A stretch of DNA of 64,000 bases from Prevotella sp. (GTDB lineage: Bacteria > Bacteroidota > Bacteroidia > Bacteroidales > Bacteroidaceae): positions 1-64,000 of the forward strand of contig JAFUVB010000041.1 in NCBI GenBank assembly GCA_017471245.1, written 5' to 3'. A program made the translations under genes and the position numbers. How positions within the stretch are numbered: the stretch's first letter is position 1; each line of letters starts with the position of its first letter. Under the pieces are notes generated by a model that did no database searches, was not told where the DNA came from, and worked only from the letters and a program-made list of their open reading frames with translations. Shown here one piece after another: positions 9,199 to 54,326 of this stretch.

Positions 9199-9320
9199 TT
9201 AGGTTTCAGCATGCAAAAACATAGGTTTCAGCATGCAAAAGCATAGGTTTCAGCACGTAAAAACATAGGTTTCAACATGCAAAAGCACAGATTTCTGCAG
9301 TCAGGAACCTATGTTTCACC
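9199..9320. repeat. 22-bp tandem array, island 1 (CATAGGTTT units)
   Basis: Units of the form ACATAGGTTTCAGCATGCAAA recur with AGGTTT (or AGATTT) at 9201, 9223, 9245, 9267 and 9289, a period of exactly 22 bp. An inverted variant (CCTATGTTT) follows at 9308. The core is a partial interrupted palindrome around ATA. The array lies directly upstream of the MurU promoter. Positions 9321-9495 hold nothing that I can assign. Confidence 0.85.
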
Positions 9321-9495
9321 GCATCAGGCATTGGTATGGGTACAAAGGAGCATTAGTTTGCATCATGATGCATGGTAATTGTCACCAAAAGCGCTTCATG
9401 CCATATACAACAGCAACCTCCTATACTATAGAAAAAAAGAATTTTTGCGATGATGAGCATAAAGTGCTGACTATTAGCCACTTCCTTGATTTTAT

Positions 9496-9834
9496 GCGGC
9501 ACCTGCTGCGTTACTTGCTGCGTTACCCGCTGCGTAAGGAAATGAAGATTTTTGGAAAGTGAAGAGTGAAGAGTGACGAGTGAAGAATTAAGAGTTGGAA
9601 GTTAAGAATTAAGAATTAAGAGTTAAGAAAAAAATGAGTTTAGGAGTGTAGGAGTGTAGACTAATGTCTTGCTACAGACCACTTGCAGACGAATGTATTC
9701 TCTAATCTTCTAATCCTCTCACTTCTCACTTCTCTCGTCTCAATTCATTTTTTCTTAACTCTTAATTCTTAACTCTTAACTTCCTTCAGGTGCCGCAGCG
9801 GGTAACGCAGCAAGTAACGCAGCGGGTAACGCAT
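9496..9834. repeat. Inverted pair of 12-bp GCTGCG-TTACYY arrays around a nested inverted low-complexity core
   Basis: Left arm 9496-9537 and right arm 9787-9834 consist of 12-bp units: GCTGCG followed by TTACCC, TTACTT or GCACCT. The right arm is in inverted orientation. Inside, a second inverted repeat pairs GGAAGTTAAGAATTAAG (from 9597) with CTTAATTCTTAACTCTTAACTTCC (ending 9783, shown here in two parts by composition only). The whole could fold as one imperfect hairpin of about 340 bases with the single-stranded centre near 9640-9740. No gene is supported in 9146-9920. Confidence 0.75.
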
Positions 9835-9920
9835 GATTTTTGCTAAATGATTGACAATAAGGAAGATATGCTCAAGTACCGTTCTTTTCTGTTTTTCCAC
9901 TCAGTAGAGTGATGCCACGC

Positions 9921-11495
9921 TCACTTTTCTGTTCGTGGGAGCACCTGAGAGATGTTCTGCTCACGATGACATACCCGCACTTCAATGCCATATCTGCTGT
10001 TCAGATATTCCGCAAGGTGCTGAGCACAATAAACACTGCGGTGCTGACCGCCCGTGCAACCAAATGAAAACATCAGGTTCGTGAATCCGCGTTGGATATA
10101 TCGTGCCACGTGAGCATCTGCCAACTTGTATACATTATCGAGAAAAGTGAGAATCTCGCCGTCGTCTTCCAGAAAACGGATAACAGGCTCATCCAATCCA
10201 GTGAGTTTTTTATACGGTTCATAACGGCCGGGGTTATGCGTACTCCGGCAATCAAACACATAGCCACCGCCATTTCCGCTCTCGTCATCGGGAATTCCCT
10301 TTCGATAAGAAAAACTGAACACACGCACCACAAGCGGTCCCTTGTTGTCGTATTTTGAGAAAGTGGCTGGTCCGTCAAGCGGATGAGCCTGATATGGATT
10401 GTTGTCGGTGATCTTATATCCATCTGCCCTACTCACTGCGGGGTGCTCTTTCTCTGCAAACTGCGGCAGCTCGGTCAACCTGCGCAGCATCTCCATCATG
10501 TATGGATACTGATTCAGCAGATTTGTAGTGAGTGGTGACATTTCTGAATCCGACACACCGGTCAACTCGCGCAGGTTTTGGATGGCTGGCGGAATACTGT
10601 CGATGAAGTGTTTCTTCCTCTCAAAATAGCCGCGGAATCCGTAAGCGCCCAATACTTGCAAAGTGCGAAACAGCACAAACAACGACAATCGGTCTACAAA
10701 ATGACGCTTGGAAGGCACTTCCGTATAGTTGCTCAGCGACTGATAGTATTCATATATCAACTGTCTGCGCAGCTTGTCGGGATATTTTGCAGATGCCTGC
10801 CACAGAAAAGATGCCAGATCATAGTAGAACGGTCCTTTGCGCCCTCCCTGGAAGTCAATAAAATACGGATTCCCGTTTTCATCTAACATTATATTGCGCG
10901 CCTGAAAATCACGGTAAAGGAAACTGTCAATGTGCTCAGCGGTCAAATCCTTCGCAAACAAGCGGAAGTTGGCTTCCAACTTCAACTCATGGAAATCCAA
11001 GTCGGTAGGTTTCAAGAAACAATACTTGAAATAATTCAGATCGAAGAGCACGCCATCCACATCAAACTCAGGCTGCGGATAGCAGTTAGACCAATCAAGC
11101 CCTCGGGCACCTCTGATCTGGATATTCGGCAATTCCCGGATCGTGCGGAGCAACAATTCCTTTTCTTTTTGGTTATACCTTCCACCTGCATCACGCCCTC
11201 CACGAATGGCATCGAATAGAGAAACGCTGCCCAGGTCTTCTTGTATATAGCGCAGTTCGTCATCATCCACTGCCAGCACCTTAGGAACGGGAAGTTGCCG
11301 CTTGGCAAAATGATTTGCAAGATACACAAATGCATGGTCTTCATCGCGACTTGTGCCTACCACGCCAACTACAGTTTTTCCCTTCGCACCCTTCATGCGG
11401 TAATAGGAACGGTTGCTACCCGCGCCCTGCAATTTCTCAACTTCTTGAGGTTCTTGCCCGCACCACCTTTTATATAATGCAATTAATCTCTGCAT
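9921..11495 (-). CDS. AmgK-like amino-sugar kinase fused to a RapZ C-terminal domain
   Basis: A 524-residue two-domain cytoplasmic protein. Residues about 1-330 are an aminoglycoside-phosphotransferase fold like AmgK, the anomeric kinase that turns MurNAc or GlcNAc into the 1-phosphate. The catalytic motif YRDFQARN is near 197 and the metal-binding IDFQGGRKGP near 213. Residues about 380-520 are a RapZ C-terminal domain: VRVFSFSYRKGIP, VFDCRSTHNPG, LTGLDEPVIRFLE and FGCTGGQHRSVYCAQHLAEY match it clearly. In E. coli RapZ this domain binds glucosamine-6-phosphate and controls GlmS through small RNAs; the RapZ N-terminal P-loop domain is absent here. The fusion suggests a kinase that senses amino-sugar phosphate (inference). 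It is 11 bp downstream of the small membrane gene and upstream of the MurU-like gene. Confidence 0.85.
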   Translation of the reverse strand: MQRLIALYKRWCGQEPQEVEKLQGAGSNRSYYRMKGAKGKTVVGVVGTSRDEDHAFVYLANHFAKRQLPVPKVLAVDDDELRYIQEDLGSVSLFDAIRGGRDAGGRYNQKEKELLLRTIRELPNIQIRGARGLDWSNCYPQPEFDVDGVLFDLNYFKYCFLKPTDLDFHELKLEANFRLFAKDLTAEHIDSFLYRDFQARNIMLDENGNPYFIDFQGGRKGPFYYDLASFLWQASAKYPDKLRRQLIYEYYQSLSNYTEVPSKRHFVDRLSLFVLFRTLQVLGAYGFRGYFERKKHFIDSIPPAIQNLRELTGVSDSEMSPLTTNLLNQYPYMMEMLRRLTELPQFAEKEHPAVSRADGYKITDNNPYQAHPLDGPATFSKYDNKGPLVVRVFSFSYRKGIPDDESGNGGGYVFDCRSTHNPGRYEPYKKLTGLDEPVIRFLEDDGEILTFLDNVYKLADAHVARYIQRGFTNLMFSFGCTGGQHRSVYCAQHLAEYLNSRYGIEVRVCHREQNISQVLPRTEK

Positions 11496-11506
11496 AGTAG
11501 TCTTGA

Positions 11507-11692
11507 TTATTCGTCTTCTTTCTGAGCTCTTCTGTCAACAATCCATGATGCCAGCAGATTCACACCGAGAATCAACAGAAGCATTATGCCAAGCGACATA
11601 AAGAAAGAACCGGTGAGATAATACAATCCTGCACCAATCACCATGAAAGCAACTATCTGTGATTTCCTTATTTTAAAGTCGTCAGCATCCAT
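11507..11692 (-). CDS. Small membrane protein
   Basis: A 61-residue protein with two predicted membrane helices (about 12-28 and 31-50) and a charged C-terminal tail (VDRRAQKEDE). I do not recognise a functional family. It is the first gene of the unit that continues into the AmgK-RapZ fusion 11 bp later. A TACCTTTG box lies 17 bp before its start, which supports it as a real gene despite its size. Confidence 0.65.
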   Translation of the reverse strand: MDADDFKIRKSQIVAFMVIGAGLYYLTGSFFMSLGIMLLLILGVNLLASWIVDRRAQKEDE

Positions 11693-11709
11693 ATTCTTCT
11701 ATTTTCCGA

Positions 11710-11738
11710 CAAAGGTACGAAAAATATTTCACCCCCAA
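11710..11738 (-). promoter_or_regulatory. Promoter of the small membrane protein and kinase unit
   Basis: On the minus strand TTG (11738-11736), 18 bases, then TACCTTTG (11717-11710). Both elements fit the Bacteroidota housekeeping consensus. Transcription should begin near 11705, leaving a leader of about 12 bases. Confidence 0.55.
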
Positions 11739-11811
11739 AAAGAATGAAGCAACATTTTGTTTCTACTGATCAAGATTGCTTGTCCATATATTGCTTATCC
11801 ATACATACAAA

Positions 11812-11842
11812 AAAATCGGATGTCGTCACGACGCCCGATTTT
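11812..11842 (-). terminator. Intrinsic terminator of the candidate small RNA
   Basis: Outer stem AATCGG/CCGATT and inner stem GTCGT/ACGAC around a 1-3 base loop, followed on the minus strand by TTTTTTT. On the plus strand only four T residues follow, so it should work mainly for leftward transcription. Confidence 0.75.
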
Positions 11843-11929
11843 CAAAAACAAACTACTTAAAAACTAATCTACTAAAACAAATCAAAAAAATATCTTTTGC
11901 CGGGAAAACCCGATACAATTCTTATTCGC
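11812..11929 (-). ncRNA. Candidate small RNA of about 118 nt between groEL and the kinase unit
   Basis: A minus-strand promoter with both elements (TTG at 11962-11960, 19 bases, TATCTTTG at 11940-11933) is followed by about 118 bases without a reading frame. These end in a strong intrinsic terminator: AAAATCGG, an inner GTCGT/ACGAC helix, CCGATTTT, then seven T residues. The body has a small hairpin (CGGGTTTTCCCGG) and AU-rich linkers with TAGTAGATTAG-like repeats. It could be an independent small RNA or a terminated leader of the gene at 11692, but that gene has its own promoter. Family unknown. Confidence 0.5.
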
Positions 11930-11932
11930 ATG

Positions 11933-11962
11933 CAAAGATAAGCACTTTCTGAATATCTTCAA
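11933..11962 (-). promoter_or_regulatory. Promoter of the candidate small RNA
   Basis: TTG at 11962-11960 and TATCTTTG at 11940-11933 on the minus strand, separated by 19 bases. This is one of the two best matches to the Bacteroidota promoter consensus in the window that precede no protein start. Confidence 0.6.
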
Positions 11963-12003
11963 AACTTTTTTGCATTTTTTTTGCATGTAGAAACAAAATA
12001 TAA

Positions 12004-12042
12004 AGAAAAAGAGACTTGCAGATAAGCAAGCCTCTTCTTTTT
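12004..12042 (-). terminator. Intrinsic terminator of groES-groEL
   Basis: GAGACTTGC (12011-12019) and GCAAGCCTC (12026-12034) pair around the loop AGATAA with one mismatch. On the minus strand the hairpin is followed by a T-rich run. It lies about 30 bases after the groEL stop codon. Confidence 0.8.
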
Positions 12043-12071
12043 GATATGTAAACTTAGCAATTTCGCTCTTT

Positions 12072-13709
<1,638 letters not shown>

Positions 13710-13735
13710 TTACCTTATTATTATATATTAAGAAT

Positions 13736-13781
13736 CTTGTTATTTAAGAACTGCGAATTCCTTGTTATTTAAGAACTGCGA
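13736..13781. repeat. 21-bp direct repeat duplicating the 3' end of groES
   Basis: CTTGTTATTTAAGAACTGCGA occurs at 13736-13756 and again at 13761-13781. The second copy contains the last codons and stop of groES; the first lies in the groES-groEL gap. The offset is 25 bp. Confidence 0.85.
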
Positions 13782-14034
13782 GCACATCACTCTGGCGCAT
13801 CATCAGATACTTCTCGCCCTCGTATTCCAGTTCAGTACCGGCATACTTGCCATAAAGCACCTCATCGCCTTCTTTCAGAATCATTTCCTCGTCTTTTGTT
13901 CCATTACCGGTGGCTACCACCTTGCCACGCAATGGTTTTTCCTTGGCTGTATCAGGAATAATAATACCGCCGATTTTCTCTTCTGCCTGTGCAGGAAGAA
14001 TCAGAACTCTGTCTGCTAATGGTTGAATTTTCAT
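13765..14034 (-). CDS. groS: Co-chaperonin GroES (10 kDa)
   Basis: An 89-residue co-chaperonin that caps the GroEL ring. It shows [19 protein letters not shown] at the start, the mobile-loop region [13 protein letters not shown], and the end [12 protein letters not shown]. The start codon follows a sigma-54-like promoter by about 45 bases. The last codons and stop are duplicated 25 bp further downstream, which does not alter the protein. Confidence 0.97.
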
Positions 14035-14077
14035 AATTATGTTTATTAAGTTGTTATTAAATTTCTACCCACCACAT

Positions 14078-14095
14078 AGCAAAGAGCGTGCCAAA
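14078..14095 (-). promoter_or_regulatory. Sigma-54-type promoter in front of groES
   Basis: The minus strand reads TTTGGCACG-CTCT-TTGCT. GG (14092-14091) and GC (14080-14079) are separated by exactly 10 bases, as required for -24/-12 recognition by RpoN, and the sequence matches TGGCACG-N4-TTGCW. No TAnnTTTG box is seen in the 55 bases before groES, and no CIRCE-type repeat. Transcription would start near 14067. Confidence 0.55.
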
Positions 14096-14213
14096 CTGAC
14101 ACAACGCACATTTTGTCACCAACCAACTGAAAAAATGGCAGTAACATACAACTATGCACATATATATAAACTGAGAAGAAAAACACCTACACATTATACT
14201 ATTGATGTAAATA

Positions 14214-14245
14214 TTTGGTGATTTACAAGATAATGATTACCTTTG
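14214..14245 (+). promoter_or_regulatory. Promoter of the GH29 gene at 14320
   Basis: TTTG at 14214-14217 and TACCTTTG at 14238-14245, 20 bases apart, match both elements of the Bacteroidota consensus. Transcription should start near 14250, so the mRNA includes all three copies of the duplicated start region. Confidence 0.65.
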
Positions 14246-14254
14246 TCGCAAGAT

Positions 14255-14338
14255 ACTTGCATCATGAAAAGAATCATATATTACTTGCATCATGAAAAGA
14301 ATCATATATTACTTGCATCATGAAAAGAATCGTATATC
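14255..14338 (+). repeat. Three tandem 28-bp copies of a translation-start region
   Basis: Copies at 14255-14282, 14283-14310 and 14311-14338 each contain GCATCATGAAAAGAATC. Because 28 is not a multiple of three, their ATG codons (14264, 14292, 14320) lie in three different frames; only the third opens the fucosidase gene. Confidence 0.9.
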
Positions 14339-15762: not shown

Positions 15763-15779
15763 AAAGAACGAAACAACTT

Positions 15780-16664
15780 ATGAGCAGAGAACGAGACATC
15801 TACAAGGTGACACTAATAGGTAGTGCCGGAAACATGGCGCTGCTGATCTTTAAGTTTATAGCTGCTATTATAGGACACAGTTCTGCCATGATGGCAGATG
15901 CCGTACACTCCCTGTCTGATTTCATTACAGACATTGTTGTTCTGTTCTTTGTCAGGATCAGTGCAAAACCGCAAGATATATCTCACGACTACGGCCATGG
16001 GAAATATGAAACCTTTGCCACTTTCATCATTGGTCTTGCCCTGTTAGCTGCTGCCATAGGAATCATCATCTCTGCCATCATGAAAATCATACAATGGGCT
16101 GGCGGAGAGCAATTGGAAGCCCCCGGAATGCTTGCTTTATGGGCAGCTCTTTTGTCTATCATCATCAAAGAACTCCTGTTCCGCTATACAGTAATTCGCG
16201 GAAAAGCTCTCGACTCTCAGGTGATGATTGCCAATGCCTGGCATCATCGCAGCGATGCCATGTCATCCATAGGCGCAGCAATCGGCATTGGAGGTGCCAT
16301 CCTGCTTGGCAATCGCTGGACAGTTCTTGACCCGATGGCATCTGTAGTGGTAGGACTGATGTTAGTGAAAGTTGCCTTTGACTTATTGAAGGGAAGCGTT
16401 GCCGAACTGACAGAAAGCTCATTACCTGAAGAAATAGAACAAGAAATCACCGATATCATCTGTTCACAAAGCAACGTAAAAGAGCCACACAACCTACGAA
16501 CCCGCCGTATCGGCAACCGCATTGCCATAGAGGCGCATATCCGAATGAATGGTGATTTGCCTTTGCGTGAGGCACATGACCAAGCAACCATTATAGAAAG
16601 AAAGCTGAAAAAGCGTTTTGGAGAGTCAACACACGTCAGCATTCACATGGAACCAATGAAATAA
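15780..16664 (+). CDS. Cation diffusion facilitator (metal efflux)
   Basis: A 294-residue inner-membrane transporter of the cation diffusion facilitator family, which exports zinc or related divalent metals in exchange for protons. Six membrane helices cover about residues 10-205. The metal site is visible as MADAVHSLSDFITD in helix 2 (with the HxxxD pattern) and SDAMSS with HHRSDAM in helix 5. The C-terminal cytoplasmic domain (about 210-294) has the usual ferredoxin-like strands and ends THVSIHMEP. It lies 17 bp after the fucosidase gene; a functional link is doubtful. Confidence 0.93.
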   Translation: MSRERDIYKVTLIGSAGNMALLIFKFIAAIIGHSSAMMADAVHSLSDFITDIVVLFFVRISAKPQDISHDYGHGKYETFATFIIGLALLAAAIGIIISAIMKIIQWAGGEQLEAPGMLALWAALLSIIIKELLFRYTVIRGKALDSQVMIANAWHHRSDAMSSIGAAIGIGGAILLGNRWTVLDPMASVVVGLMLVKVAFDLLKGSVAELTESSLPEEIEQEITDIICSQSNVKEPHNLRTRRIGNRIAIEAHIRMNGDLPLREAHDQATIIERKLKKRFGESTHVSIHMEPMK

Positions 16665-16692
16665 ACTTGTGAATGCTGAGTGTTTTCGGGTG

Positions 16693-16766
16693 AGCCTCTT
16701 GTCGGATTCGAACCAACGACCCCGAGATTACAAATCACGTGCTCTGGCCAACTGAGCTAAAGAGGC
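16693..16766 (-). tRNA. tRNA-Thr (anticodon TGT)
   Basis: The minus strand folds as a full cloverleaf: acceptor GCCTCTT/AAGAGGC, D-stem GCTC/GAGC, T-arm GTTGG-TTCGAAT-CCGAC and discriminator T. The anticodon loop TTTGTAA gives TGT, reading ACA. One T-T mismatch lies in the anticodon stem. CCA is not encoded. The gene begins 4 bases after the SRP RNA and is probably cut from the same transcript. Confidence 0.95.
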
Positions 16767-16770
16767 GGGT

Positions 16771-16866
16771 GGGCAAGCTACCCGTATCGCGCCGCTACAA
16801 CCAACTACCTTTGCTACGTTCCCGTCCTGGAGGATTCGAAGGGAGCTGGCCGTACGGGACTTACCC
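16771..16866 (-). ncRNA. ffs: Signal recognition particle RNA, small bacterial type
   Basis: About 96 bases on the minus strand from GGGTAAG (16866) to CTTGCCC (16771), which pair with each other as the closing stem. The apical part contains CCAGGACGGGAACGTAGCA, the conserved domain IV region that binds the Ffh protein and its GNAR-type loop. The RNA is part of the particle that targets nascent membrane proteins. A TACCTTTG box lies 12 bases upstream and a tRNA-Thr follows 4 bases downstream. Confidence 0.88.
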
Positions 16867-16878
16867 ATTTTGCGGCTG

Positions 16879-16886
16879 CAAAGGTA
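16879..16886 (-). promoter_or_regulatory. -7 box of the SRP RNA-tRNA-Thr unit
   Basis: TACCTTTG on the minus strand, 12 bases before the first paired base of the SRP RNA. No clear -33 TTG is seen. It probably drives both RNA genes. Positions 16887-17071 hold nothing else that I can assign. Confidence 0.6.
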
Positions 16887-17071
16887 ATCATTTTAATCAG
16901 AAATTGAGAAATTATGAATTAGAAATTATGATTTGGCGAGTGTTTTTATCAGTTTTTAACAAATAGATAATGGCGGATTCATGTTGGATTCATGTTGGTT
17001 CCATGTAGGTTCCATTTATTAAGTAATCATAATTCTTCCGTCTTCATTCGTCATTCTTCATTTTTTATTTG

Positions 17072-17079
17072 TAACTTTG
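17072..17079 (+). promoter_or_regulatory. -7 box TAACTTTG of the DUF4199 gene
   Basis: TAACTTTG ends 8 bases before the ATG at 17088, so the transcript should carry a leader of only a few bases. This supports the ATG at 17088 over an upstream in-frame start that would lie before the promoter. Confidence 0.6.
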
Positions 17080-17087
17080 CACTCGAT

Positions 17088-17636: not shown

Positions 17637-17640
17637 AAAC

Positions 17641-19875: not shown

Positions 19876-19917
19876 GCCGAAGCCCCGGCAGCAGTTTTCC
19901 ACCATCGCCCATACCCA

Positions 19918-21067: not shown

Positions 21068-21068
21068 C

Positions 21069-21740: not shown

Positions 21741-21805
21741 AAGCCACAACAATAAGGCGCAAAACCGCCGCAAACCGCGTGAAGCGGCGATGATTTCAAC
21801 CGAAA

Positions 21806-22020
21806 GAGCATAGGCACTGAAAGCAAGAGCATAGCTTTTTTTTGACAGCAAAAACTTATAGGTCTTATAAGACTTATAGGGCCTATAGGTCTTATAAGAC
21901 TGACATGGTGGGAAAAGCAGAGCTCTTGAAGAGAAAAGCATAGCTTTTGATGCTCGAAAGCATATCTTTTGATGCTTGTAACCATAGCTTTTTATGATTG
22001 AAACCATAGCTTTCATCAAA
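21806..22020. repeat. 22-bp tandem array, island 2 (AAAGC-ATA-GCTTT units)
   Basis: The clearest units begin at 21937, 21959, 21981 and 22003 with a period of 22 bp; weaker units lie at 21806-21845 and 21916. The core is an interrupted palindrome with arms AAAGC/GCTTT, differing from AAACC/GGTTT in island 4 by matched changes in both arms. Between the weaker and stronger units sits the 39-bp palindrome at 21862-21900. Confidence 0.8.
21862..21900. repeat. 39-bp near-perfect palindrome inside island 2
   Basis: GTCTTATAAGACTTATAGG (21862-21880) and CCTATAGGTCTTATAAGAC (21882-21900) pair at 18 of 19 positions around one base. Each arm itself contains the palindrome GTCTTATAAGAC. Confidence 0.85.
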
Positions 22021-22135
22021 AGAGCACAAATGCTGAATGCCCCATAACAGCCATCTCTCCCTTAGCAAAAAATAACAAAGAAGTGTCACTTGAGCCTAAA
22101 ACGCTGTATGTCAACAGTTTACGCAAATTTATCTG

Positions 22136-22433
22136 TTACCCGCTGCGCCACCTGATGCCGCACCTGATGCGACACCTACTGACCATTTTCGGCTCCTCAA
22201 TCGTCGTTTTTGTTCGACTTTTCCACAGAACTGTCCGATTTGTGAATTCGGTTTCGGTTTTGTGCACGCAAACAACGACGGAAATACATTACTTTGAAAT
22301 GTCGTGGATTTTTACTTTGCACACTCAAACGACTGAATATCAGACGTTTAGCAATTGAAAAATATTAACAAAATGGGCGTTTCGTCAACAAAGTTCCACA
22401 AAAATACGCATCAGGTGCCGCATCAGGTGCTAC
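22136..22433. repeat. Inverted pair of 12-bp arrays, island 2 (GATGCG-GCACCT units)
   Basis: Left arm 22136-22178 (TTACCC-GCTGCG-CCACCT-GATGCC and further 12-bp units) and right arm 22407-22433 in inverted orientation, about 228 bp apart. The units are variants of those in islands 1 and 3. The AT-rich segment between the arms holds no gene that I can support. Confidence 0.7.
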
Positions 22434-22564: not shown

Positions 22565-22735
22565 AAAAGTCTGCGACAATAAAACAAAAAGCCTGGGACA
22601 ATAAAACAAAAAGTCTGGGACAATAAAACAAAAAGTCTGCAACAGTAATAACAAAAAACCTGGGAAGCAAAATCTAAAAGTCTGGGACAATAAAACATAA
22701 AGTCTGAAACGGAAAACCTCAAAACTCAGCGACGG
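22565..22735. repeat. 22-bp tandem array of an unrelated unit (AAAGTCTGGGACAATAAAAC)
   Basis: CTG of the unit falls at 22571, 22593, 22615, 22637, 22660, 22682 and 22704, a period of 22 bp with a single 23; a weaker copy follows near 22726. The sequence is unrelated to the CATAGG arrays but has the same period. The array ends about 105 bp before the -7 box of the peptidase operon. Positions 22434-22564 hold nothing that I can assign. Confidence 0.85.
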
Positions 22736-22839: not shown

Positions 22840-22847
22840 TATCTTTG
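22840..22847 (+). promoter_or_regulatory. -7 box TATCTTTG of the peptidase operon
   Basis: A full match to TAnnTTTG 25 bases before the ATG at 22873. A TTG start codon at 22837 would overlap this box and is therefore rejected. Confidence 0.65.
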
Positions 22848-22872
22848 CACTCTGATTAGAAACGACATTAGT

Positions 22873-34048: not shown

Positions 34049-35401
34049 ATGGATCAAATCAACCAGATACTCACCGATCTCTCCTCCCTGCTTTGGGGAT
34101 GGCCGATGATCATCCTGCTGTTAGGAACCCACCTGTTTCTGACCATCCGACTGCGCTTTCCGCAACGACACCTATGGACAGCCATCCGACTAAGCTTCAG
34201 AAAAGACAAGGATGCCAGCGGCGATGTGTCGCAGTTCGGCGCACTTGCCACCGCACTCGCTGCCACTATCGGCACGGGAAACATCATCGGTGTGGCCACC
34301 GCTGTGGCATTGGGCGGTCCGGGAGCCGTGCTGTGGTGCTGGCTAACGGGACTTTTCGGCATCTCCACAAAATATGCCGAAGGACTGCTTGCCGTGAAAT
34401 ACCGTGTGAAGACCGAAGGCGGGCGCACGCTGGGCGGCCCCATGTATGCCCTGGAACGCGGTTTGGGATGGAAATGGCTGGCTGTGCTCTTCGCCTTGTT
34501 CACCGCGATAGCCTCATTCGGCATAGGAAATACCGTTCAGGCAAATGCCATTGCCACGCTCACATACGAGACCTACAACATCTCGCCCTACATAACAGGC
34601 ACGCTCATCATGCTGCTTGCGGGTGCAGTGGTGCTGGGCGGCATCAAGAGCATTGCCCGTGTATGCACCATGCTCGTACCTTTCATGGCTGTGTTCTACA
34701 TCATCGGCTGCATCGTCATTCTCTTTATTAACGGCAGTTATGTGTGGCCGGCCATCAAACTGATATGTGAAGCAGCGTTCAACCCCGAAGCTGCCGGCGG
34801 CGGATTTGTGGGAAGCACGGTGATGATGGCAGCCCGCTTCGGTATTGCGCGCGGTCTGTTCTCCAACGAGTCAGGTATGGGCAGTGCACCCATCGTTGCT
34901 TCAGCCGCACAAACGCGCAATCCGGTGCGCCAGGCATTGGTTTCGAGCAGCGGAACCTTCTGGGACACGGTGGTGATCTGTGCGCTTACGGGACTCGTCA
35001 TCGTGAGCAGCATCATTGCCTACCCCGATATTTCCTACGAAAACGGGGCAACGCTCACGAAGATGGCATTCAGCAAGATACCTTACATCGGTGCTCCACT
35101 GCTCACATTCGGTCTGCTCACCTTCGCCTTCTCCACCATTCTCGGCTGGGAACTCTATGGAGAGCGCGCCGTGGAATACTTAGACAGCCGATTGCGCCGT
35201 CCTTACCGCATCCTCTACATCCTCATTTTGTTCGTCGGAGCGGTGATGAACCTCGGCATCGTGTGGAATCTTGCCGACTGCATGAATGCGCTGATGGCGA
35301 TACCAAACCTCATTTCGCTGCTCTTCCTCAGCGGTGTCATCGTCCATGAGACACGTCAATATTTGTGGAAAGATCAGTTGGACAAGGATATGGAGATATA
35401 A
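34049..35401 (+). CDS. Sodium:alanine/glycine symporter (AGCS family)
   Basis: A 450-residue inner-membrane amino-acid transporter of the AGCS family with about eleven helices. Family motifs are FGALATALAATIGTGNIIGV near the start, GGPGAVLWCWLTGLFGISTK, SNESGMGSAPIVASAAQT in the middle and FAFSTILGWELYGERAVEYL near the end. The ATG at 34049 begins MDQINQIL and gives a normal N-terminus; an earlier in-frame ATG overlaps the DUF4230 gene. A long palindrome lies about 100 bp downstream. Confidence 0.9.
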   Translation: MDQINQILTDLSSLLWGWPMIILLLGTHLFLTIRLRFPQRHLWTAIRLSFRKDKDASGDVSQFGALATALAATIGTGNIIGVATAVALGGPGAVLWCWLTGLFGISTKYAEGLLAVKYRVKTEGGRTLGGPMYALERGLGWKWLAVLFALFTAIASFGIGNTVQANAIATLTYETYNISPYITGTLIMLLAGAVVLGGIKSIARVCTMLVPFMAVFYIIGCIVILFINGSYVWPAIKLICEAAFNPEAAGGGFVGSTVMMAARFGIARGLFSNESGMGSAPIVASAAQTRNPVRQALVSSSGTFWDTVVICALTGLVIVSSIIAYPDISYENGATLTKMAFSKIPYIGAPLLTFGLLTFAFSTILGWELYGERAVEYLDSRLRRPYRILYILILFVGAVMNLGIVWNLADCMNALMAIPNLISLLFLSGVIVHETRQYLWKDQLDKDMEI

Positions 35402-35495
35402 TCATCTTGGCAATTCCGCGCATTCTCTACACGTAAAAAACAGTATTGTTGTGTAGATGCGTACAACTTCATGATAACCAGGATGTTAGAAGAAA

Positions 35496-35570
35496 TGCTG
35501 CGTTACTCGCTGCGTTACCTGCTGCGTTACCCGCAGCGGGTAACGCAGCAGGTAACGCAGCAGGTAACGG
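35496..35570. repeat. 69-bp near-perfect palindrome of 12-bp GCTGCG-TTACYY units, island 3
   Basis: Left arm 35501-35534 and right arm 35536-35569 pair at 32 of 34 positions around a single central base (35535). Each arm is three 12-bp units of the same family as the inverted pairs in islands 1 and 2. It lies between convergent genes and may act as a terminator or extrude as a cruciform. A weak hairpin CTACAC/GTGTAG lies at 35427-35456. Confidence 0.9.
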
Positions 35571-35696
35571 ATAGAACTTAATAACCTATTGATAATCAGC
35601 GCGTTTATACGCAGCCAATTATCTTTATGGAATCCACCATAGGGAGAGAACCTCCATGCAATCAGAAGGATGCCATTTTCACGATGGATGCGTGAA

Positions 35697-35844
35697 GACA
35701 TAGGCTTCAAAGTTCAAAAGCATAGATTTTAAAGCTCAAAAGTATAGGTTTTGAGGCATGAAAGCATAGGTTTTGAAGTTCAAAAACATAGGTTTTGGCG
35801 CATGAAAGCATAGATTTCACAGCACGAAAACATAGGTATTGGCT
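35697..35844. repeat. 22-bp tandem array, island 3 (GCATAGGTTTTGAAG units)
   Basis: TAG of the core falls at 35701, 35723, 35745, 35767, 35789, 35811 and 35833, seven units with an invariant 22-bp spacing although the 9-bp linkers vary. The array ends at the stop codon of the minus-strand permease gene. Positions 35571-35696 hold no gene that I can support. Confidence 0.92.
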
Positions 35845-36549
35845 TTAATAGACCATGCAGAACACTCCCGCAAGAATGAAGAGCACGGCAACAATACGCG
35901 TGAGCCACACCTGAACCTGATGCATGCCGCGGCTGATGCGCTCAAACGACTGGATGCTATAGGCAAAAACGTATGCCATGAGAAGAACAGGCAGGGCGGT
36001 GCCGATGGCAAAACCAACGGGAATGAGATAGCCTGCTGACGATTCAACCGACATGGGGATGATCATTCCGAAATAAACAATGCCACTCTCTGGGCAGAAT
36101 GCCATGGCAAAAACGATGCCGAGCAGCATACTGCCCCACGCCCCATGGAACCAACCCTTGGGGTCTTTCGTGGAAGGAACATGATCGTGATGATGAAGCA
36201 GGTCGGTATACAGCAGATAAAGCCCGATGGCAATCAGCAGCGGGGCAAGCAATCGCTCGCCCCACTCACTCATTTGCTCACCGATGTGCATCACCTGGGC
36301 ACCTCCTTTGATGACAATAATCATCACGATGCCTAAAAGAGAATAGGAAATGGTGCGTCCCAAGGTGTAGAGCAGGCCGTTGGCAAGCAGCGAAAAGCGC
36401 GATTCTCCGCTCTTGGCTTTCACGATATACCCCATGGCAGCAATGTTGGTGGCAAGCGGACAGGGATGTATCGCCACGAGCAGCCCCATGAGAAAGGCTG
36501 TGAGCAGGGGGAATTGGCTGTTTGCAAACAGCTGCTGCATGAGTTCCAT
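35845..36549 (-). CDS. ArsG-like/CcdA-fold permease (TauE/DsbD-type)
   Basis: A 234-residue inner-membrane protein with about six helices. The conserved AIHPCPLATNIAAMGYIV in the first helix and MAFCPESGIVYFGMIIPM in the fourth place it in the DsbD/CcdA-related group, and overall it resembles the ArsG-type permeases annotated as aromatic arsenical exporters. A His-rich loop (LLHHHDHVP) could bind metal. In other genomes such genes sit with a thioredoxin and nitroreductase; none is here. It begins 21 bp after the GH28 gene on the same strand. Confidence 0.72.
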   Translation of the reverse strand: MELMQQLFANSQFPLLTAFLMGLLVAIHPCPLATNIAAMGYIVKAKSGESRFSLLANGLLYTLGRTISYSLLGIVMIIVIKGGAQVMHIGEQMSEWGERLLAPLLIAIGLYLLYTDLLHHHDHVPSTKDPKGWFHGAWGSMLLGIVFAMAFCPESGIVYFGMIIPMSVESSAGYLIPVGFAIGTALPVLLMAYVFAYSIQSFERISRGMHQVQVWLTRIVAVLFILAGVFCMVY

Positions 36550-41796: not shown

Positions 41797-41822
41797 GGTG
41801 TTTCCTTATTATTTCTGTTATG

Positions 41823-44042: not shown

Positions 44043-44130
44043 TATTTCTTCTATATTATCTAATCATGAACTATCTATTCTCTTATCATGAAATCTCTTC
44101 TGAAAGAAGCCAAGACACAAGCCAAATTGG

Positions 44131-46623: not shown

Positions 46624-46674
46624 ATACTCACGATCTGTTTATGTTATGTTCCTTCAATCTGCTACGTCATGTTC

Positions 46675-49659: not shown

Positions 49660-49756
49660 ATTTTCGTATTTTATTTATTTTGATCGTTCAACCTATGTGA
49701 TGAATACATGTCTTCTTGCTTCTGGCATTATGCTTCCTTCGCATTCGACTTGCATG

Positions 49757-49783
49757 CAAAGATAAACATTTACCTTAATACAA
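49757..49783 (-). promoter_or_regulatory. Promoter of the GH31-GH2-GH3-GH31-GH29 run
   Basis: TATCTTTG at 49764-49757 on the minus strand with TTG at 49783-49781, 16 bases apart (shorter than ideal). About 98 bases before the GH31 start, so the leader is long enough to hold regulatory structure, though none was seen. Confidence 0.5.
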
Positions 49784-49818
49784 TGACTTTGAAATGTTAC
49801 AAATACATATACCAAATG

Positions 49819-52800
49819 TTAACTCGTGGCTTCCTTATACTGTGAAGGCATCATTCCATACTGATCCTTGAAGTATTTTGAGAAATAACGCGGGTTGTTG
49901 AATCCCACTTTGTATGCTATTTCTGCCACTGTCATACCACTTTGCCTGAGCAACTGCTCTGCCCGTTGCAGGCGAATGGTGCGAATGAACTCCGATGGCG
50001 TGCTTCCCGTGATTGAAAGCAGCTTTTTATAAAGGTTCACGCGCGACATTCCGAGCTCATAGCTCAGCATTTCCACTGAGAAATCTGCGTTGGCGATGTT
50101 CTTTTCCACCAACAGCGTGGCTTTTTTCACCATTTTCTCGTCTTCAGATGTCACTTCTATCTCCTTGGCGAGCGGTTTCAGCTTATCCTTGCTGCCAGCC
50201 TTTCTCCATTTCAGGAGGTTCTGGATGCGCAGATTCAGAAGATCGATGTTGAAAGGCTTTGTGATATAGTCGTCGGCACCGCCCTCCATGCCCTCTATTT
50301 TCTGCTCCTGCGCCATGCGCGCAGTGAGCATGACAAACGGAATAGACTGTGTTGCGGGATTGTGTTTCAGTGTTTTGCAAAGCTCAAGACCATCCATCAC
50401 GGGCATCATTACGTCGCTCAGGATCAGGTCGGGATGCTTTTCGAGCACCATCATCAATGCTTCTTTGCCGTTGTGGGCCACTCTTACGTTGTAATCAGTG
50501 GACAACACCTCGGTCATAAATGCGAGGAAGTCGGCACTGTCGTCAACAATCATCACCTCATAGTTCGCTTTCGCACCGCCCTTCGAGCCGTCTGCAGGTG
50601 CTTGAGTGCCATCCGAAGATGGTGAAGCGCCGTCTGCTGTTACAAGAATTCCCTCCTCGGACTGTGCGTTAGAACTTTCGCCGGCAGACAATGTGAGGTT
50701 TTCCTGCTGCAGAGGCAGCTGCCTGAGAGCAGAATCATGCCTAACGGGGATGGAAACACAGAACACAGTTCCGCATTCCTCACCATCGCTCACGGTAATG
50801 GTGCCGTCGTGAAGCTCAACAAAGTCTTTCACAAGGCTCAACCCTACTCCGCTGCTGCCATAAAGCCCACCGTTAACATCCTGGCTGCCACCTTCTTGCC
50901 TGCGAATTCTATAGAAACGGTCGAAGATGTGCAGCTTCTCGTCGTCGCTCACGCCGATGCCCGTGTCAGAAACCTGCATGCGCAACATTGCTTCTTGCCC
51001 GTTTGCGCCTTCGTCGACACTGATTTTCACGTCTACATGCCCTCCCTCTTTGGTGTATTTATACGCATTCGAGAGCAGATTGTTCATCACTTTACGGATT
51101 TTATCATCGTCGAAAGACATGAGCTGATGCTCAACCGATGAGGAGAAACTCAGTTCAATGTTCTTGTCTTGCACCAGTCGGAATGCGTTGCAGATGGTTC
51201 TCACAAAGTCAACCATATCGCCCGTCACGAGATTCAGCCGCTCCATGTTCTCGTCAATCTTCCTGAAGTCGAGCAATTGGTTCACTTGCGCGAGCAGATG
51301 ACTGGCATTTCGGTGGATCATTTCGAGCATTCCGCGCTTCTTTTCATCCTCCTCGCGCTTCACCATCTGTGAAAGCGGAGAGATGATCAGTGTGAGCGGT
51401 GTGCGCAATTCGTGGCTGGCATTGGTGTAGAACTGCATTTTCATCTCGTCGATCTCGCGTTCCTTCTCAGCGTTCTTGCGCAGTTGCTCCATTTCAAGGC
51501 GCTCGCGCTCGCGCTCCAGCATCTCTCTTTCGCGCTGAAGTTTCAGCTTTTGCCTGTGGTCGTACCACCAGAAGGCTCCGAACAGGAGCATTCCGCCCAG
51601 CAGGACATAGAGAATCACTGCCCATGCAGAGGCATAGAAAGGCGGATGGATGGTGATTTGCAGTTCACTGACTTCATCAAACGGACTGCCGTAGCGGTCG
51701 AGCACCTGCACCTGCAGGCGGTATCTGCCGGGCGAAAGGTTGGTGAATGTCACCTCGCTACGGTCAATGTTGGTGAGCATCCAGTGCTCGCTGAGTTCCA
51801 AAAGACGGTATCTGAACTGATGGCGCGACGGGTATGCCACATCGTTTACTGCCAGCTGAATGGTGAAAGTGTTCTCAGAATACTCCAGTTCGAGCTGTCT
51901 GCTCTCGTTGATTGCATCTTTAAGCACCACTTTGCCGTTGTATTTCTCGCCCACCGACAGCGGATGATCGAAGAGAATAATGCCGCTGAACACGGCTTTT
52001 GCTGCCTTCTGGCTGCCGGAGTCGTGGTTGAACGGCACGATGTTGATGCCGTCTTGCCCTCCAATCAATACGTCGCCGTTGCGGGCAAGCATCACACTGC
52101 GATAGTTGAACTGCCTTTCCTGCAGACCGTCCACCTCGTTATAGTTCATCACATATAGCTGCCAGCTGCCGTTTTCCTGAGAAACGGTGACGCGAGAGAG
52201 CCCAAAATCAGACACAACCCACACATCGTGCCTCGTGTCTTCTATCACTGAGCATGCCGAACTGCCCACCAGCCCGTTGTCTTCGCCCAATATGGAGAGC
52301 TGATCAGTTACCGGATCATACACGTTAACGCCCGAAGAGGTGGCTGTCCAGATAAGTCCGCGGCTGTCTTGCATGATATGGTTGACCGCAGGACTGGAGA
52401 ATGGCGCGCCGCTGCGGGTGGTATTATAGTTGACAACCTCAGCAGGTGCAGCCCCGGAGCGGGCTTTCGCGCCGCCTTTGAGCACACTGAAGTTCTGCGA
52501 ATGCCCCACCAGCAAGTCGCCGTCCTTACATACAAAGAGCGAAGCAATATAGTCTGACTGAAGGCCGGCGCTTTCCACCGTATAGGAAGCGCTGAACTCG
52601 CCGGTCTTCGTGTTGAGTATCTGCAGTCCTCCGCCAAGGGTTCCCACGATGATATTTCCGTTTTTGTCTTCGGCAAGGCTCCACACATTGTTGTTGCAAA
52701 GCCCGTTTTTCGTGCTGAAAACTGTCCACGAGCCGCCCTGATAGTGAGCCATTCCACCGCTGTAAGTGCCAAACCACAGCGAACCGTCGCTGGCACAGAG

Positions 52801-54048
52801 CGAGCTAACCACGATATTTGAGCCGAGACGACTTACGGAACTGTCGAAAGAATGCATGGTTCCCGTGAGCGGGTCATAGCAGATGATGCCCTTGTCGTTG
52901 GTTCCTATCCAGTAGTTGCCAAGCCGGTCTTCGGCAATAGTGCACACATCGCCCACTCCGATCAGCGGAAACCTGACACCATTCTCATTATAATAAGCCG
53001 CGCCATTCTTGTATGTACCGATCCAAAGCGCACCGTTGTCGTCGAGAAACAGGCTCTGCAGCGTGTTGTCGGGCAGCGACGACTCGTCGTTCTTGGCGTT
53101 TTTATACTGTCGGAACACCATTCCGTTCACGTCAACCTCCAGTAATCCGGCATGGTCGGTGGCTATCCAGATGCGGCCTTTGCCGTCTTCAACAACGTCT
53201 TTCACCAGAATGTTTTCCTTCTGATAAGCTATGCCGCGGGCATTGAGCCACTCTCCCACCGTGGAATACCACTTCTGGTCTTGCGCGGAATACACCATCG
53301 ACACGCCGTCGCCCGCTATCCAGTAGTTGTGCATGTGGTCTGCGTGCACCGAATATTCCACATCCGACGGCAATCCGTGCTCTGGCAGATAGCGGTTCAC
53401 CCACTTCACGCTCTGATTGTCACCGTCGACGCGCACCAGAGTGCCGTCGTTGTAAGCCATGACAACCGTTTTGTCTATCTCATCGATACTCGTTACAACG
53501 CCGCGAGGTATCTCGTTGCGACCTCCGCCAAAGGCTATCAGCCGCGCTTTCGGCATCTTTTCGTTGTAGAAATACAGCCCCTCACCGCTGACAACCACAT
53601 AGAGATTCTTGCGGGAATCGACAAACACAAACGACGGACTGCCGTTCATGCCCACCTGCCTCATCCATTTCTCAGGATGCTGATCAAACAATTCGGTGCG
53701 CGGATCATACAGGCAGTAACCCGTCATCGTGCCAACCCATATCCTTCCGCTGCCGTCTTCATAGAGCGAATTCACCACATCGTTGACCAACGACTGAGCA
53801 TTGCCGGGGCGGGAATAGAACTTCTTGAACCTCACACCATCGAAACGGTTGAGCCCAGAGGCAGTTCCGAACCATACAAAGCCGCGTGAATCTTTCATAA
53901 TGCAGTTCACCTGACCATTGGAAAGCCCCTGACGGTTGCCAATATAGTGGAAATCGGGCGCCAAGACCTGCTTTGCCGCGCCTTGACTCGCCGCAGAAAC
54001 AGACAATGCCATGGATATGGCTACCACGAATGACAGAAAACTCCTCAT
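49819..54048 (-). CDS. Hybrid two-component system regulator (HTCS) of the glycan locus
   Basis: A 1409-residue one-protein sensor-regulator in the inner membrane. Order: signal peptide (1-21); periplasmic two-component propeller repeats (about 30-690, many blades such as GRIWVGTMTGYCLYD and ALWIGTYKNGAAYY); Y_Y_Y domain (about 720-795); one membrane helix (about 803-823); coiled coil; histidine kinase with NASHELRTPLTLI (His near 876) and ATPase motifs; a Ser/Ala/Gly-rich linker (about 1120-1160); receiver with phospho-Asp in LILSDVMMPVMDG (near 1210); C-terminal AraC helix-turn-helix (about 1320-1405). Such proteins bind an oligosaccharide in the periplasm and switch on their own locus. It has a separate promoter and a 22-bp repeat array upstream. 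Confidence 0.95.
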   Translation of the reverse strand: MRSFLSFVVAISMALSVSAASQGAAKQVLAPDFHYIGNRQGLSNGQVNCIMKDSRGFVWFGTASGLNRFDGVRFKKFYSRPGNAQSLVNDVVNSLYEDGSGRIWVGTMTGYCLYDPRTELFDQHPEKWMRQVGMNGSPSFVFVDSRKNLYVVVSGEGLYFYNEKMPKARLIAFGGGRNEIPRGVVTSIDEIDKTVVMAYNDGTLVRVDGDNQSVKWVNRYLPEHGLPSDVEYSVHADHMHNYWIAGDGVSMVYSAQDQKWYSTVGEWLNARGIAYQKENILVKDVVEDGKGRIWIATDHAGLLEVDVNGMVFRQYKNAKNDESSLPDNTLQSLFLDDNGALWIGTYKNGAAYYNENGVRFPLIGVGDVCTIAEDRLGNYWIGTNDKGIICYDPLTGTMHSFDSSVSRLGSNIVVSSLCASDGSLWFGTYSGGMAHYQGGSWTVFSTKNGLCNNNVWSLAEDKNGNIIVGTLGGGLQILNTKTGEFSASYTVESAGLQSDYIASLFVCKDGDLLVGHSQNFSVLKGGAKARSGAAPAEVVNYNTTRSGAPFSSPAVNHIMQDSRGLIWTATSSGVNVYDPVTDQLSILGEDNGLVGSSACSVIEDTRHDVWVVSDFGLSRVTVSQENGSWQLYVMNYNEVDGLQERQFNYRSVMLARNGDVLIGGQDGINIVPFNHDSGSQKAAKAVFSGIILFDHPLSVGEKYNGKVVLKDAINESRQLELEYSENTFTIQLAVNDVAYPSRHQFRYRLLELSEHWMLTNIDRSEVTFTNLSPGRYRLQVQVLDRYGSPFDEVSELQITIHPPFYASAWAVILYVLLGGMLLFGAFWWYDHRQKLKLQREREMLERERERLEMEQLRKNAEKEREIDEMKMQFYTNASHELRTPLTLIISPLSQMVKREEDEKKRGMLEMIHRNASHLLAQVNQLLDFRKIDENMERLNLVTGDMVDFVRTICNAFRLVQDKNIELSFSSSVEHQLMSFDDDKIRKVMNNLLSNAYKYTKEGGHVDVKISVDEGANGQEAMLRMQVSDTGIGVSDDEKLHIFDRFYRIRRQEGGSQDVNGGLYGSSGVGLSLVKDFVELHDGTITVSDGEECGTVFCVSIPVRHDSALRQLPLQQENLTLSAGESSNAQSEEGILVTADGASPSSDGTQAPADGSKGGAKANYEVMIVDDSADFLAFMTEVLSTDYNVRVAHNGKEALMMVLEKHPDLILSDVMMPVMDGLELCKTLKHNPATQSIPFVMLTARMAQEQKIEGMEGGADDYITKPFNIDLLNLRIQNLLKWRKAGSKDKLKPLAKEIEVTSEDEKMVKKATLLVEKNIANADFSVEMLSYELGMSRVNLYKKLLSITGSTPSEFIRTIRLQRAEQLLRQSGMTVAEIAYKVGFNNPRYFSKYFKDQYGMMPSQYKEATS

Positions 54049-54135
54049 TGAAAGCTAAGATTTGTTCCGTTCAAGTTAGTAGATGCATGGTTCCTCCCAT
54101 GCCTGCCCATGCAGAAAGCATGCGCTTTGATGGTG

Positions 54136-54143
54136 CAAATTTA
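54136..54143 (-). promoter_or_regulatory. -7 box TAAATTTG of the HTCS gene
   Basis: Full match on the minus strand, about 87 bases before the HTCS start. The nearest unit of the 22-bp array lies about 60 bp further upstream. Confidence 0.5.
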
Positions 54144-54197
54144 ACAAAAAGAATTGGGAAATCACTATATTTTTTGTTAAAACAGATGCACTCTTTT

Positions 54198-54326
54198 TCA
54201 AAACCTATGGTTTCACCCCGCAAAACCTATGCTTTTGGGCTGCAAAACCTATGGTTTCAGACCTCAAAACCTATGGTTTTGCGCCCTGAAACCTATGCTT
54301 TTGAAGGGTGAAACCATAGGTTTTGA
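54198..54326. repeat. 22-bp tandem array, island 4 (AAACC-TAT-GGTTT units)
   Basis: CCTATG falls at 54204, 54226, 54248, 54270 and 54292, and an inverted CCATAGG at 54314, all 22 bp apart. The core AAACC-TAT-GGTTT is an interrupted palindrome with perfect 5-bp arms in several units. It sits between the HTCS promoter and the end of the GH5 gene. From about 54375 to 54435 the sequence is a GGAAAAACAC-rich low-complexity run. Confidence 0.9.

Follow-up and report, generated by a model that had tools for sequence, protein, structure and literature searches.

Intergenic 22-bp arrays with a phased AAA/TTT frame and species-specific central words in a Prevotella-like genus

What keeps short tandem arrays between bacterial genes at a spacing of 22 bp while much of their sequence varies? 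The question is raised by a 64,000-nucleotide stretch of Prevotella DNA, referred to below as the window, in which a first-pass annotation had described four intergenic arrays of 22-bp period with a core around CATAGG, as well as a further array of unrelated sequence, and had proposed that proteins line up on one face of the DNA. The 22-bp arrays are confirmed, and the interpretation is supported in part. The repeated unit of the four arrays is quasi-palindromic and 22 bp long; it consists of AAA-N7-TTT and a 9-bp linker of variable sequence, an arrangement that places an A or T tract roughly every 11 bp (Table 1). In one of them the claim has to be narrowed, as the strict period within 21806-22020 is confined to 21935-22014; two outlying units lie at about 21805 and 21826, and other repeats intervene before the phased array. 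The 22565-22735 array does have a different unit, and its spacings (22, 22, 22, 23, 22, 22, 22) match the others except for one 23. Because it is without the AAA-N7-TTT frame, we rejected it as a member of the same family and kept it apart.

Table 1. Arrays, boxes and related sites in the window.
Feature	Position	Strand	Remark
22-bp phased array, 6 units (+++++-), last inverted	9194..9317	+	
22-bp phased array, 4 units (++++)	21935..22014	+	
Two outlying CATAG units, spacing 21 bp, out of phase with the 21935 array	21805..21843	+	
22-bp phased array, 7 units if a weaker first one is included; 6 by matrix scan	35695..35840	+	
22-bp phased array of 6 units, the one nearest 54324 inverted and the other five on -	54200..54324	-	
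Separate tandem repeat, unit about AAAAGTCTGGGACAATAAAACA, 8 units	22565..22735	+	no AAA-N7-TTT frame
-7-like box TAATTTTG, downstream of the 9194 array	9151..9158	-	
-7-like box TATCTTTG, downstream of the 22565 repeat	22840..22847	+	
-7-like box TAAATTTG, downstream of the 54200 array	54136..54143	-	
TATCAATAGGTTA, matches IHF-like consensus WATCAANNNNTTR, about 113 bp from the 35695 array	35582..35594	-	

The array at 9194 precedes the start of a nucleotidyltransferase gene (8396-9145, minus strand; Pfam PF00483) by about 49 bp, that at 21935-22014 is flanked by genes for a Crp-type regulator and an M3 peptidase (Pfam), and that at 35695 sits between convergent symporter and DsbD-like genes. 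The -7 boxes that had been noted near 9199, 22565 and 54198 are present, as TANNTTTG at 9158(-), 22840(+) and 54143(-). At gathering scores, Rfam matched only SRP RNA and tRNA in the window and left the arrays unmatched.

The exact core AAARCATAGGTTTY has 222 matches in the 3.7-Mb Prevotella-like genome that holds the window, compared with none for the reversed pattern, which excludes chance; periods do not spread widely, and a looser core pattern searched at 21-bp spacing as a control matched once in the whole genome. In a 456-kb sample of this genome, whose densities are biased upwards because it was selected partly for its matches, 119 of 127 gaps from centre to centre measure exactly 22 bp, as do the distances between 20 opposite-strand neighbours, so that inverted units keep phase. 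The pairing of constant spacing with variable linkers, as first described, thus holds well. Linker positions differ at 399 of 792 sites in 99 adjacent same-strand pairs; with an indel/substitution ratio of 0.106, taken from another species pair, about 42 length changes would be expected, and three were seen (21, 23 and 23 bp), or six if gaps of 30, 64 and 89 bp are counted. Around 72 seed cores, the core identity of unconditioned neighbours is 0.81 at 22 bp to either side, against 0.17-0.46 at all other distances from 16 to 28 bp, and is 0.69 at 44 bp and 0.57 at 66 bp. The sequences thus indicate that the 22-bp spacing is under strong constraint. Counted in four species, most arrays have 4-6 units.

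Comparison across species separates the frame from the word it encloses. Three frames at 22 bp found matches in 86 of 150 same-genus genomes, the window's own included, and at least 10 places in 33 of them; places are overlapping matches rather than arrays, and many of the 86 genomes have only one to three. What these relatives share is the 22-bp frame and not the words, which differ by species: CATAGG is well conserved within the window's species and is that species' own word, and congeners carry other words in the same AAA/TTT frame. The genus can do without the element, since 64 of the 150 congeners gave no match. A 21-bp version reaches 10 places in only two of the 150 (G021 and G063), which have 0 and 4 places at 22 bp. 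Across the order, 19 of 148 genomes matched (own genome excluded) in a set that held only one genome from another genus of the same family; most of the matches listed are A+T-rich low complexity, and that of one genome (G046, 4 places) resembles a real repeat.

Three element pairs of two congeners, G107 and G016, allow the changes to be apportioned, with synteny on one side only in one pair and, in two, a degenerate edge unit counted first and the last canonical unit omitted. Substitutions affect 1 of 72 frame positions, 22 of 84 in the word, 8 of 81 in the linker and 155 of 1112 outside (frame versus outside, Fisher p=0.0005); there are no indels within the arrays, and word changes often come as blocks. 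Elements are also gained and lost between related species. Judged by these alignments, frame and phase are constrained, and the central words and linkers are not in the same way, so CATAGG falls as the conserved feature. Because frame and period are kept while the word changes, a shape signal is favoured over sites for a CATAGG-reading protein. The proposal of proteins on one face of the DNA keeps the strongly constrained spacing and the in-phase inverted units on its side, and loses favour as a string of CATAGG-reading sites.

The explanation we prefer, to which we would give nearly an even chance, is that the arrays are BIME-like intergenic elements in which phased A/T tracts bend the DNA for a putative shape-reading protein, while recombination reshuffles the words. 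The window arrays would be one species-specific form of a dispersed intergenic family that extends across much of one Prevotella-like genus. Selection would keep a bent or wrapped segment between genes, and an architectural or topological protein reading its shape, probably of the HU/IHF family or gyrase, would use it; the words within a genome would be made alike as its many copies recombine or serve as templates for one another. The window's genome contains six PF00216 matches.

Predicted curvature is in keeping with bending. In a wedge model, group means for arrays are 0.89-1.21, compared with 0.42-0.46 for dinucleotide shuffles, a height that is partly built in because the scored arrays were preselected by an AAA/TTT detector; the lowest mean (0.89) falls under the genome's 99th percentile of 1.04. 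The frame filled with random words gives 1.09 at period 22, 1.73 at 21 and 0.35 at 23, and random DNA gives 0.33; by this computation, the frame alone makes DNA strongly curved. As a point against the reading, curvature is predicted to be more planar at 21 bp than at 22 bp, the period of most array-rich species. Like phased A-tracts, the arrays, preselected by their tracts, have tracts at 10-11 bp and high predicted curvature.

The genomic setting is that of elements between genes. In G000 (the window's species), G016 and G107, a crude caller places 7 of 64 arrays over an open reading frame of 110 codons or more, and the others lie outside. With these 7 and a further 9 at stretch ends dropped, 22 of 48 arrays are in convergent context, against 44 of 164 intergenic stretches (p=0.02; three genomes). 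Over all ten genomes, with 7 further arrays dropped, the figures are 24 of 62 and 56 of 231 (p=0.036); divergent contexts are in deficit (6 of 62 versus 50 of 231, p=0.044), which is not significant in the three genomes (p=0.14). The over-representation of convergent genes is evidence against a pure operator role, as had been argued from the array at 35697, and since some arrays lie just upstream of promoters there is possibly more than one role.

Matches to an IHF-like consensus number 23 close to arrays, against a mean of 2.8 and a maximum of 9 for shuffled consensuses. They are clear in G016 and in the array-rich Xylanibacter caecicola and not clear in the window's own species, with 3 matches near arrays and 32 far from them; motifs resembling TATCAATAGGTTA directly adjoin some arrays of other species. 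Mainly in those two genomes, this consensus is a better signal than the flank motif CTGATTATCAA, which occurs near some arrays and is insufficiently enriched in G000, and which we rejected as a universal companion.

Several known systems resemble the arrays in part. Like BIME, REP and RIB elements of enterobacteria, they are dispersed intergenic copies of regularly spaced quasi-palindromic units in either orientation. Those elements often lie between convergent or co-directional genes, RIBs are bound by IHF, and the REP palindrome has a fixed sequence with 5' GTAG. The Prevotella elements are likewise extragenic, dispersed and present in many copies (222 exact cores, many contigs); by contrast, they repeat every 22 bp around an AAA/TTT frame, have neither a fixed sequence nor a constant GTAG, and carry words that are species-specific and swap. 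Alternating orientations have been described for enterobacterial 'regularly spaced REPs' (PMC2817692), and gyrase has been reported at BIME-2 (PMC6379681). BrickBuilt of Porphyromonas gingivalis is also an intergenic tandem repeat of similar period in the Bacteroidales, a 23-nt repeat inside an element with leader and tail; it is reported as 19 copies of one sequence in a strain with 1 to 22.8 repeats, within-element mismatches of 0-11% and indels of 0-6%, and its printed consensus has no AAA/TTT frame (PMC4596501), whereas the Prevotella family is genus-wide, fixed in phase and free in sequence. A-tract clusters share the helically phased A/T tracts and the expected curvature, and their 10-11 bp periodicity is described as a genome-wide periodic signal in bacteria (PMC3940949); the Prevotella arrays are instead discrete, tandem and strictly phased, and their number differs greatly between species. 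The gyrase wrapping motif of E. coli, about 130 bp with phased G+C variation fitted to wrapping, is described as degenerate with a separate 36-bp central part (PMC6379681), in contrast to arrays that are periodic throughout and variable in length. We rejected plasmid iterons: the arrays occur on many contigs, no initiator gene was found beside those in the window, and none of 10 window proteins scanned, most of them array neighbours, matched a replication initiator family.

Less probable than the shape-reading element, yet a serious competitor, is a selfish dispersed repeat of MITE or REP type, in which a transposase acting in trans copies whole elements and the minisatellite is carried along with no host function. 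BrickBuilt, a MITE that carries a 23-nt minisatellite, offers a precedent (PMC4596501). Flanks close to TTTTGTAAAGATAATTC ... GAAAAATATTTACA are conserved in 11 of 12 sampled G107 elements, one of these 11 having variant ends; these TGTAAA-type ends are in inverse orientation, and by eye no clean target-site duplication was evident in the cases examined. G016 lacks one element of G107, G107 in turn lacks one of G016, and a sister of the window's species has no counterpart of the stretch with the 35695 array, 12 bp separating the aligned ends of the symporter and DsbD-like genes. In each of the four species examined, different arrays also share more linkers than column shuffles do (77 versus 12-17, 382 versus 125-166, 212 versus 67-111 and 17 versus 5-9). 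Hitch-hiking alone, however, predicts neither a frame ten times more conserved than outside DNA nor the near absence of length changes, and 9-mer enrichment in the window's species gave no conserved flank like that of G016.

We consider it rather doubtful that the arrays amount to a 'shape code', that is, discrete, genome-wide DNA-wrapping or supercoil-pinning sites with AAA/TTT every 11 bp (10.5 in a few species), free in sequence and with a period tuned to supercoiling or to a wrapping protein; if true, the arrays would parallel nucleosome-positioning sequences in function. We think it unlikely that the arrays are operators for a dedicated dimeric protein that binds a specific sequence, its recognition word co-evolving in each species. 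Operators would fit the quasi-palindromic vocabulary common to many arrays in each of four genomes, the identity of unconditioned neighbours in G000 (0.81 in the core versus 0.49 in linkers) and the position of three window arrays or repeats upstream of -7 boxes, but element pairs swap whole words with the frame and most linker letters unchanged, unrelated words coexist in one genome (40 distinct words among 89 units in X. caecicola), and convergent regions are favoured.

That transcribed units fold into long hairpins which stabilise or terminate transcripts is improbable. Among five arrays folded on both strands, four reach z-scores of -4 or lower: 54190-54330, a single hairpin (-11.8 and -12.1), 9190-9325 (-7.8 and -6.6), a G107 element (-4.3 and -5.1) and a G081 array (-4.5 and -5.1); six of 12 G107 elements are preceded within 200 bp by a terminator-like hairpin and T run, four of them with stems of at least 13 pairs. 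Against this, 35700-35845 gives only -1.7 and -2.9, the palindromic frame accounts for much of the low folding energy, and permuting linkers over 82 arrays does not make folding clearly worse (mean ranks on the two strands 0.45 and 0.47, with t-test p of 0.048 and 0.41; unit permutation 0.48 and 0.47), so we rejected an RNA hairpin as the general function. A mutational artefact, in which slippage and template switching regenerate 22-mers with no function, is very improbable: runs of identical units exist (L033, L204) and words are seen, and replace one another, in either orientation, as expected from hairpin template switching, but about half of adjacent linker positions differ at a fixed length and corresponding elements of different species keep the frame.

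If selection does keep the frame, the arrays are natural replicated experiments on shape reading in the bacterial nucleoid, in a host genus that is dominant in gut and rumen; with species of 21 and 22 bp, many copies, and sites with and without the element, a role for helical phasing is directly testable. Two of six mapped elements lie at synteny breakpoints. Several genomes are metagenome bins, so breakpoints and absences at repeats are possibly assembly errors; unless they are, the family may shape genome rearrangement.

The frame itself may also vary. A loose detector threshold does not distinguish 21, 22 and 23 bp (12 arrays each in G107), and exact patterns resolve them. The reversed-pattern control of the genus survey reads AAA-N9-TTT and, with 216 places in G107, is not independent, because arrays with four-base tracts match it too; the proper controls are periods 16-30 and the 21-bp search. 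In seven of 150 genomes (G003, G007, G025, G069, G117, G148 and G171), AAA-N9-TTT exceeds the forward count with 7 to 31 places, a pattern suggesting that some species may use a 12-bp A-to-T offset.

The first-pass annotation had described four CATAGG arrays in the window, and these are present at about the positions it gave, with some coordinates corrected (Table). The host genome (3.73 Mb in 114 contigs, the window being contig C106) has Prevotella from rumen and gut as its nearest named relatives, and the M3 peptidase of the window is 93% identical to its counterpart in Prevotella sp. UBA4268. A whole-genome search for the CATAGG-type consensus, as that annotation had proposed, found the exact 14-mer AAARCATAGGTTTY at 222 places (123 + 99) and its reversed form at none. 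The CATAGG arrays are neither a product of chance nor confined to the window. In a 456-kb sample comprising the window and 20 further stretches of this genome, many chosen because they contain matches, there are 27 arrays with 154 units, six units being the commonest size (11 of 27 arrays).

The strict 22-bp period suggested earlier, as opposed to a wide scatter, is borne out in this sample: 119 of 127 centre-to-centre distances are 22 bp, 20 of them between neighbours in opposite orientation, and the others are 21 (once), 23 (twice), 30, 44, 64, 88 and 89 bp (once each). When the sequence 22 bp to each side of 72 seed cores was compared blind, with no preselection, identity was 0.81 for the core and 0.49 for the linker; core identity was 0.17-0.33 at offsets of 16-20 and 24-28 bp. 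Adjacent 8-bp linkers on the same strand, compared in 99 pairs, are mismatched at 399 of 792 positions. At the indel/substitution ratio found in intergenic alignments of two related species (0.106, 42/397), about 42 linker length changes would be expected, versus 3 observed among all 127 gaps, or 6 when the 30-, 64- and 89-bp gaps are included. Because the linkers have diverged and yet so rarely changed in length, the 22-bp spacing must, as judged from these sequence comparisons, matter.

The 22-bp arrays are a genuine and unusual family within one genus. CATAGG is scarce in congeners, where at many of the loci read it lies within a 22-bp array whose remaining units have other centres. A centre-free detector (AAA at positions 1-3, TTT at 11-13, periods 16 to 30) peaks at 22 in the window's genome (30 arrays), G016 (24 in 140 kb) and G026 (5 in 120 kb), counts at 21 and 23 being at least partly shadows of 22, and genome G063 has period 21 instead (3 arrays versus 0 in 60 kb). 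Applied to 912 kb of sequence surrounding 80 peptidase loci, the detector yielded 8 arrays with period 22 bp, from 7 loci, along with 2 at 21 and 1 at 23; it found none at other periods of 16-30 and none in block shuffles. Three AAA-N7-TTT frames at 22 bp occur in 86 of 150 same-genus genomes, the window's own included, and at 10 or more places in 33 (503 in G107, 491 in G016, 293 in G143, 260 in the window's genome); 27 of the 35 genomes behind the 80 named peptidase loci match, and Xylanibacter caecicola PCHR has 62 places. At 21 bp, 49 of the 150 match, with at least 10 places only in G021 (41) and G063 (12), whose counts at 22 bp are 0 and 4. Since the order-wide matches (19 of 148 genomes besides the window's own) lie chiefly in A+T-rich low-complexity sequence, G046 perhaps holding a genuine repeat, a strong signal is seen only in this genus, other genera of the family being sampled once. 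The central words differ by species, for example GGTGCCC, GGTGGCA and GCATAGC in X. caecicola; CCTACG, CAGCCG and CAATAGG in G016 and G107.

The best-supported reading, to which we tentatively give almost even weight, is that phased A/T tracts bend the DNA into a shape selected for a shape-reading architectural or topological protein (HU/IHF family or gyrase). The main rival, that the elements spread selfishly, we consider rather unlikely as the explanation, and it and the selected bend can both be true together. Curvature predicted by a wedge model has array group means of 0.89-1.21, versus 0.42-0.46 for dinucleotide shuffles and a genome 99th percentile of 1.04, and is partly built in because the arrays were selected by their tracts. 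Within this model frame and period suffice for the predicted bend, since in simulations that combine four-base tracts with random words the curvature is 1.09, 1.73 and 1.28 at periods 22, 21 and 20, and 0.29-0.38 at 23, 24, 26 and 28 (random DNA, 0.33). A spacing of 11 bp per tract, not 10.5, may fit DNA that is underwound or that follows a right-handed superhelical path. Over all genomes scanned, matches to an IHF-like consensus (from E. coli) number 23 next to arrays, whereas shuffled versions of the consensus average 2.8 and never exceed 9. Most of the 23 are in G016 (10), where their distance from the array is often fixed, and X. caecicola (7); no enrichment was found near arrays of the window's genome, which has six PF00216 (HU/IHF family) matches. 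A gyrase motif of about 130 bp with phased G+C, and gyrase at BIME-2, are described in PMC6379681; A-tract periodicity (PMC3940949) and the BrickBuilt MITE (PMC4596501) offer comparison, with related work in PMC12393610, PMC5771137 and PMC12306157. BIMEs and BrickBuilt are nearest in kind to the arrays, which differ in being defined by a phased A/T frame, not by sequence. Searches of the open-access literature (subscription papers being outside their scope) for Prevotella 22-bp, interspersed, dispersed or curved repeats returned no description of the family.

In G107, sampling of 12 elements showed 11 with a length of about 230 bp and conserved ends flanking the array. Three elements beside the same DNA in G107 and G016, one flanked on one side only, could be aligned: changed sites number 1/72 in AAA/TTT, 8/81 in linkers, 22/84 in words and 155/1112 in outside DNA, with no indels within the three arrays. 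Word changes include block swaps, such as GAGC to CCTA, with neighbouring sequence nearly intact. One element is present only in G107 and one only in G016; of six in two mapped G107 stretches, 2 are syntenic, 2 lie at synteny breakpoints, 1 is absent and 1 falls in an unaligned stretch. The breakpoints suggest, from the alignments, ectopic recombination between copies or misassembly, which at repeats could mimic such breaks. In place of window 35396-35841, a sister genome has 12 bp separating the two aligned gene ends, and its M3 peptidase is preceded by about 190 bp, versus about 1.1 kb in the window.

Arrays lie disproportionately often between convergent genes (22/48 arrays versus 44/164 regions in three genomes, p=0.02; 24/62 versus 56/231 in ten, p=0.036) and are rarer between divergent genes (5/48 versus 33/164, p=0.14; 6/62 versus 50/231, p=0.044). 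Terminator-like hairpins precede 6 of the 12 G107 elements, so these often lie behind a transcription end. Four of five arrays folded as RNA have z <= -4 on both strands and one is weak; an RNA hairpin as their general role is not supported, linker permutation over 82 arrays giving no clear general folding effect (mean ranks 0.45 and 0.47; p 0.048 and 0.41).

Table. Positions of arrays, breakpoints and other repeats
Feature	Stretch	Positions	Detail
CATAGG arrays	window	9194-9317, 21935-22014, 35695-35840, 54200-54324	
Lowest folding z	window	54190-54330	-11.8 and -12.1 on the two strands
Synteny breakpoint, G107 vs G016	L182	~15806-16158	at array
Synteny breakpoint, G107 vs G016	L183	~10117-10151	at array
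12-bp repeats	window	9501-9535, 9794-9833, 22144-22177, 22407-22430, 35497-35569	units like GCAGCGGGTAAC, GCAGGTAACGCA, CGCATCAGGTGC
Heptamer-based repeats	window	9558-9781	
Heptamer-based repeats	L037, L043, L045, L048		
22-mer ATTGATAATCAGCACAATTCTG	L032	12007-12074	three exact copies
AAAAGATACCGAGC(N8) repeats, G016	L084	7915-8094	
AAAAGATACCGAGC(N8) repeats, G016	L083	9563-9690	
CATAGG array, then directly another 22/44-bp array	L036	9407-9607	second unit AAAGTATCGAAAATCAATAGCA
tRNA-Thr adjoining Bacteroidales small SRP RNA	window	16693-16873	

Several other repeats were noticed. The reversed frame AAA-N9-TTT (three units, 22 bp) exceeds the forward frame in G003, G007, G025, G069, G117, G148 and G171 (7-31 places each); a 12-bp A-to-T offset may thus be in use in some species. 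G016 carries a second 22-bp family, with one array of 8.2 copies at 94%, and the first half of ATTGATAATCAGCACAATTCTG is a flank motif beside some arrays in other species. A 12-bp family lies near the 22-bp arrays, and among all tandem repeats surveyed in the sample 12 is the commonest period, with 36 of 193 non-overlapping rows. Heptamer-based repeats (CATTGAC, TCTTGCT/C, AGAGGTG, TTAAGAA; periods 7, 14, 21) are frequent in the window's genome and resemble the heptamer repeats known in cyanobacteria.
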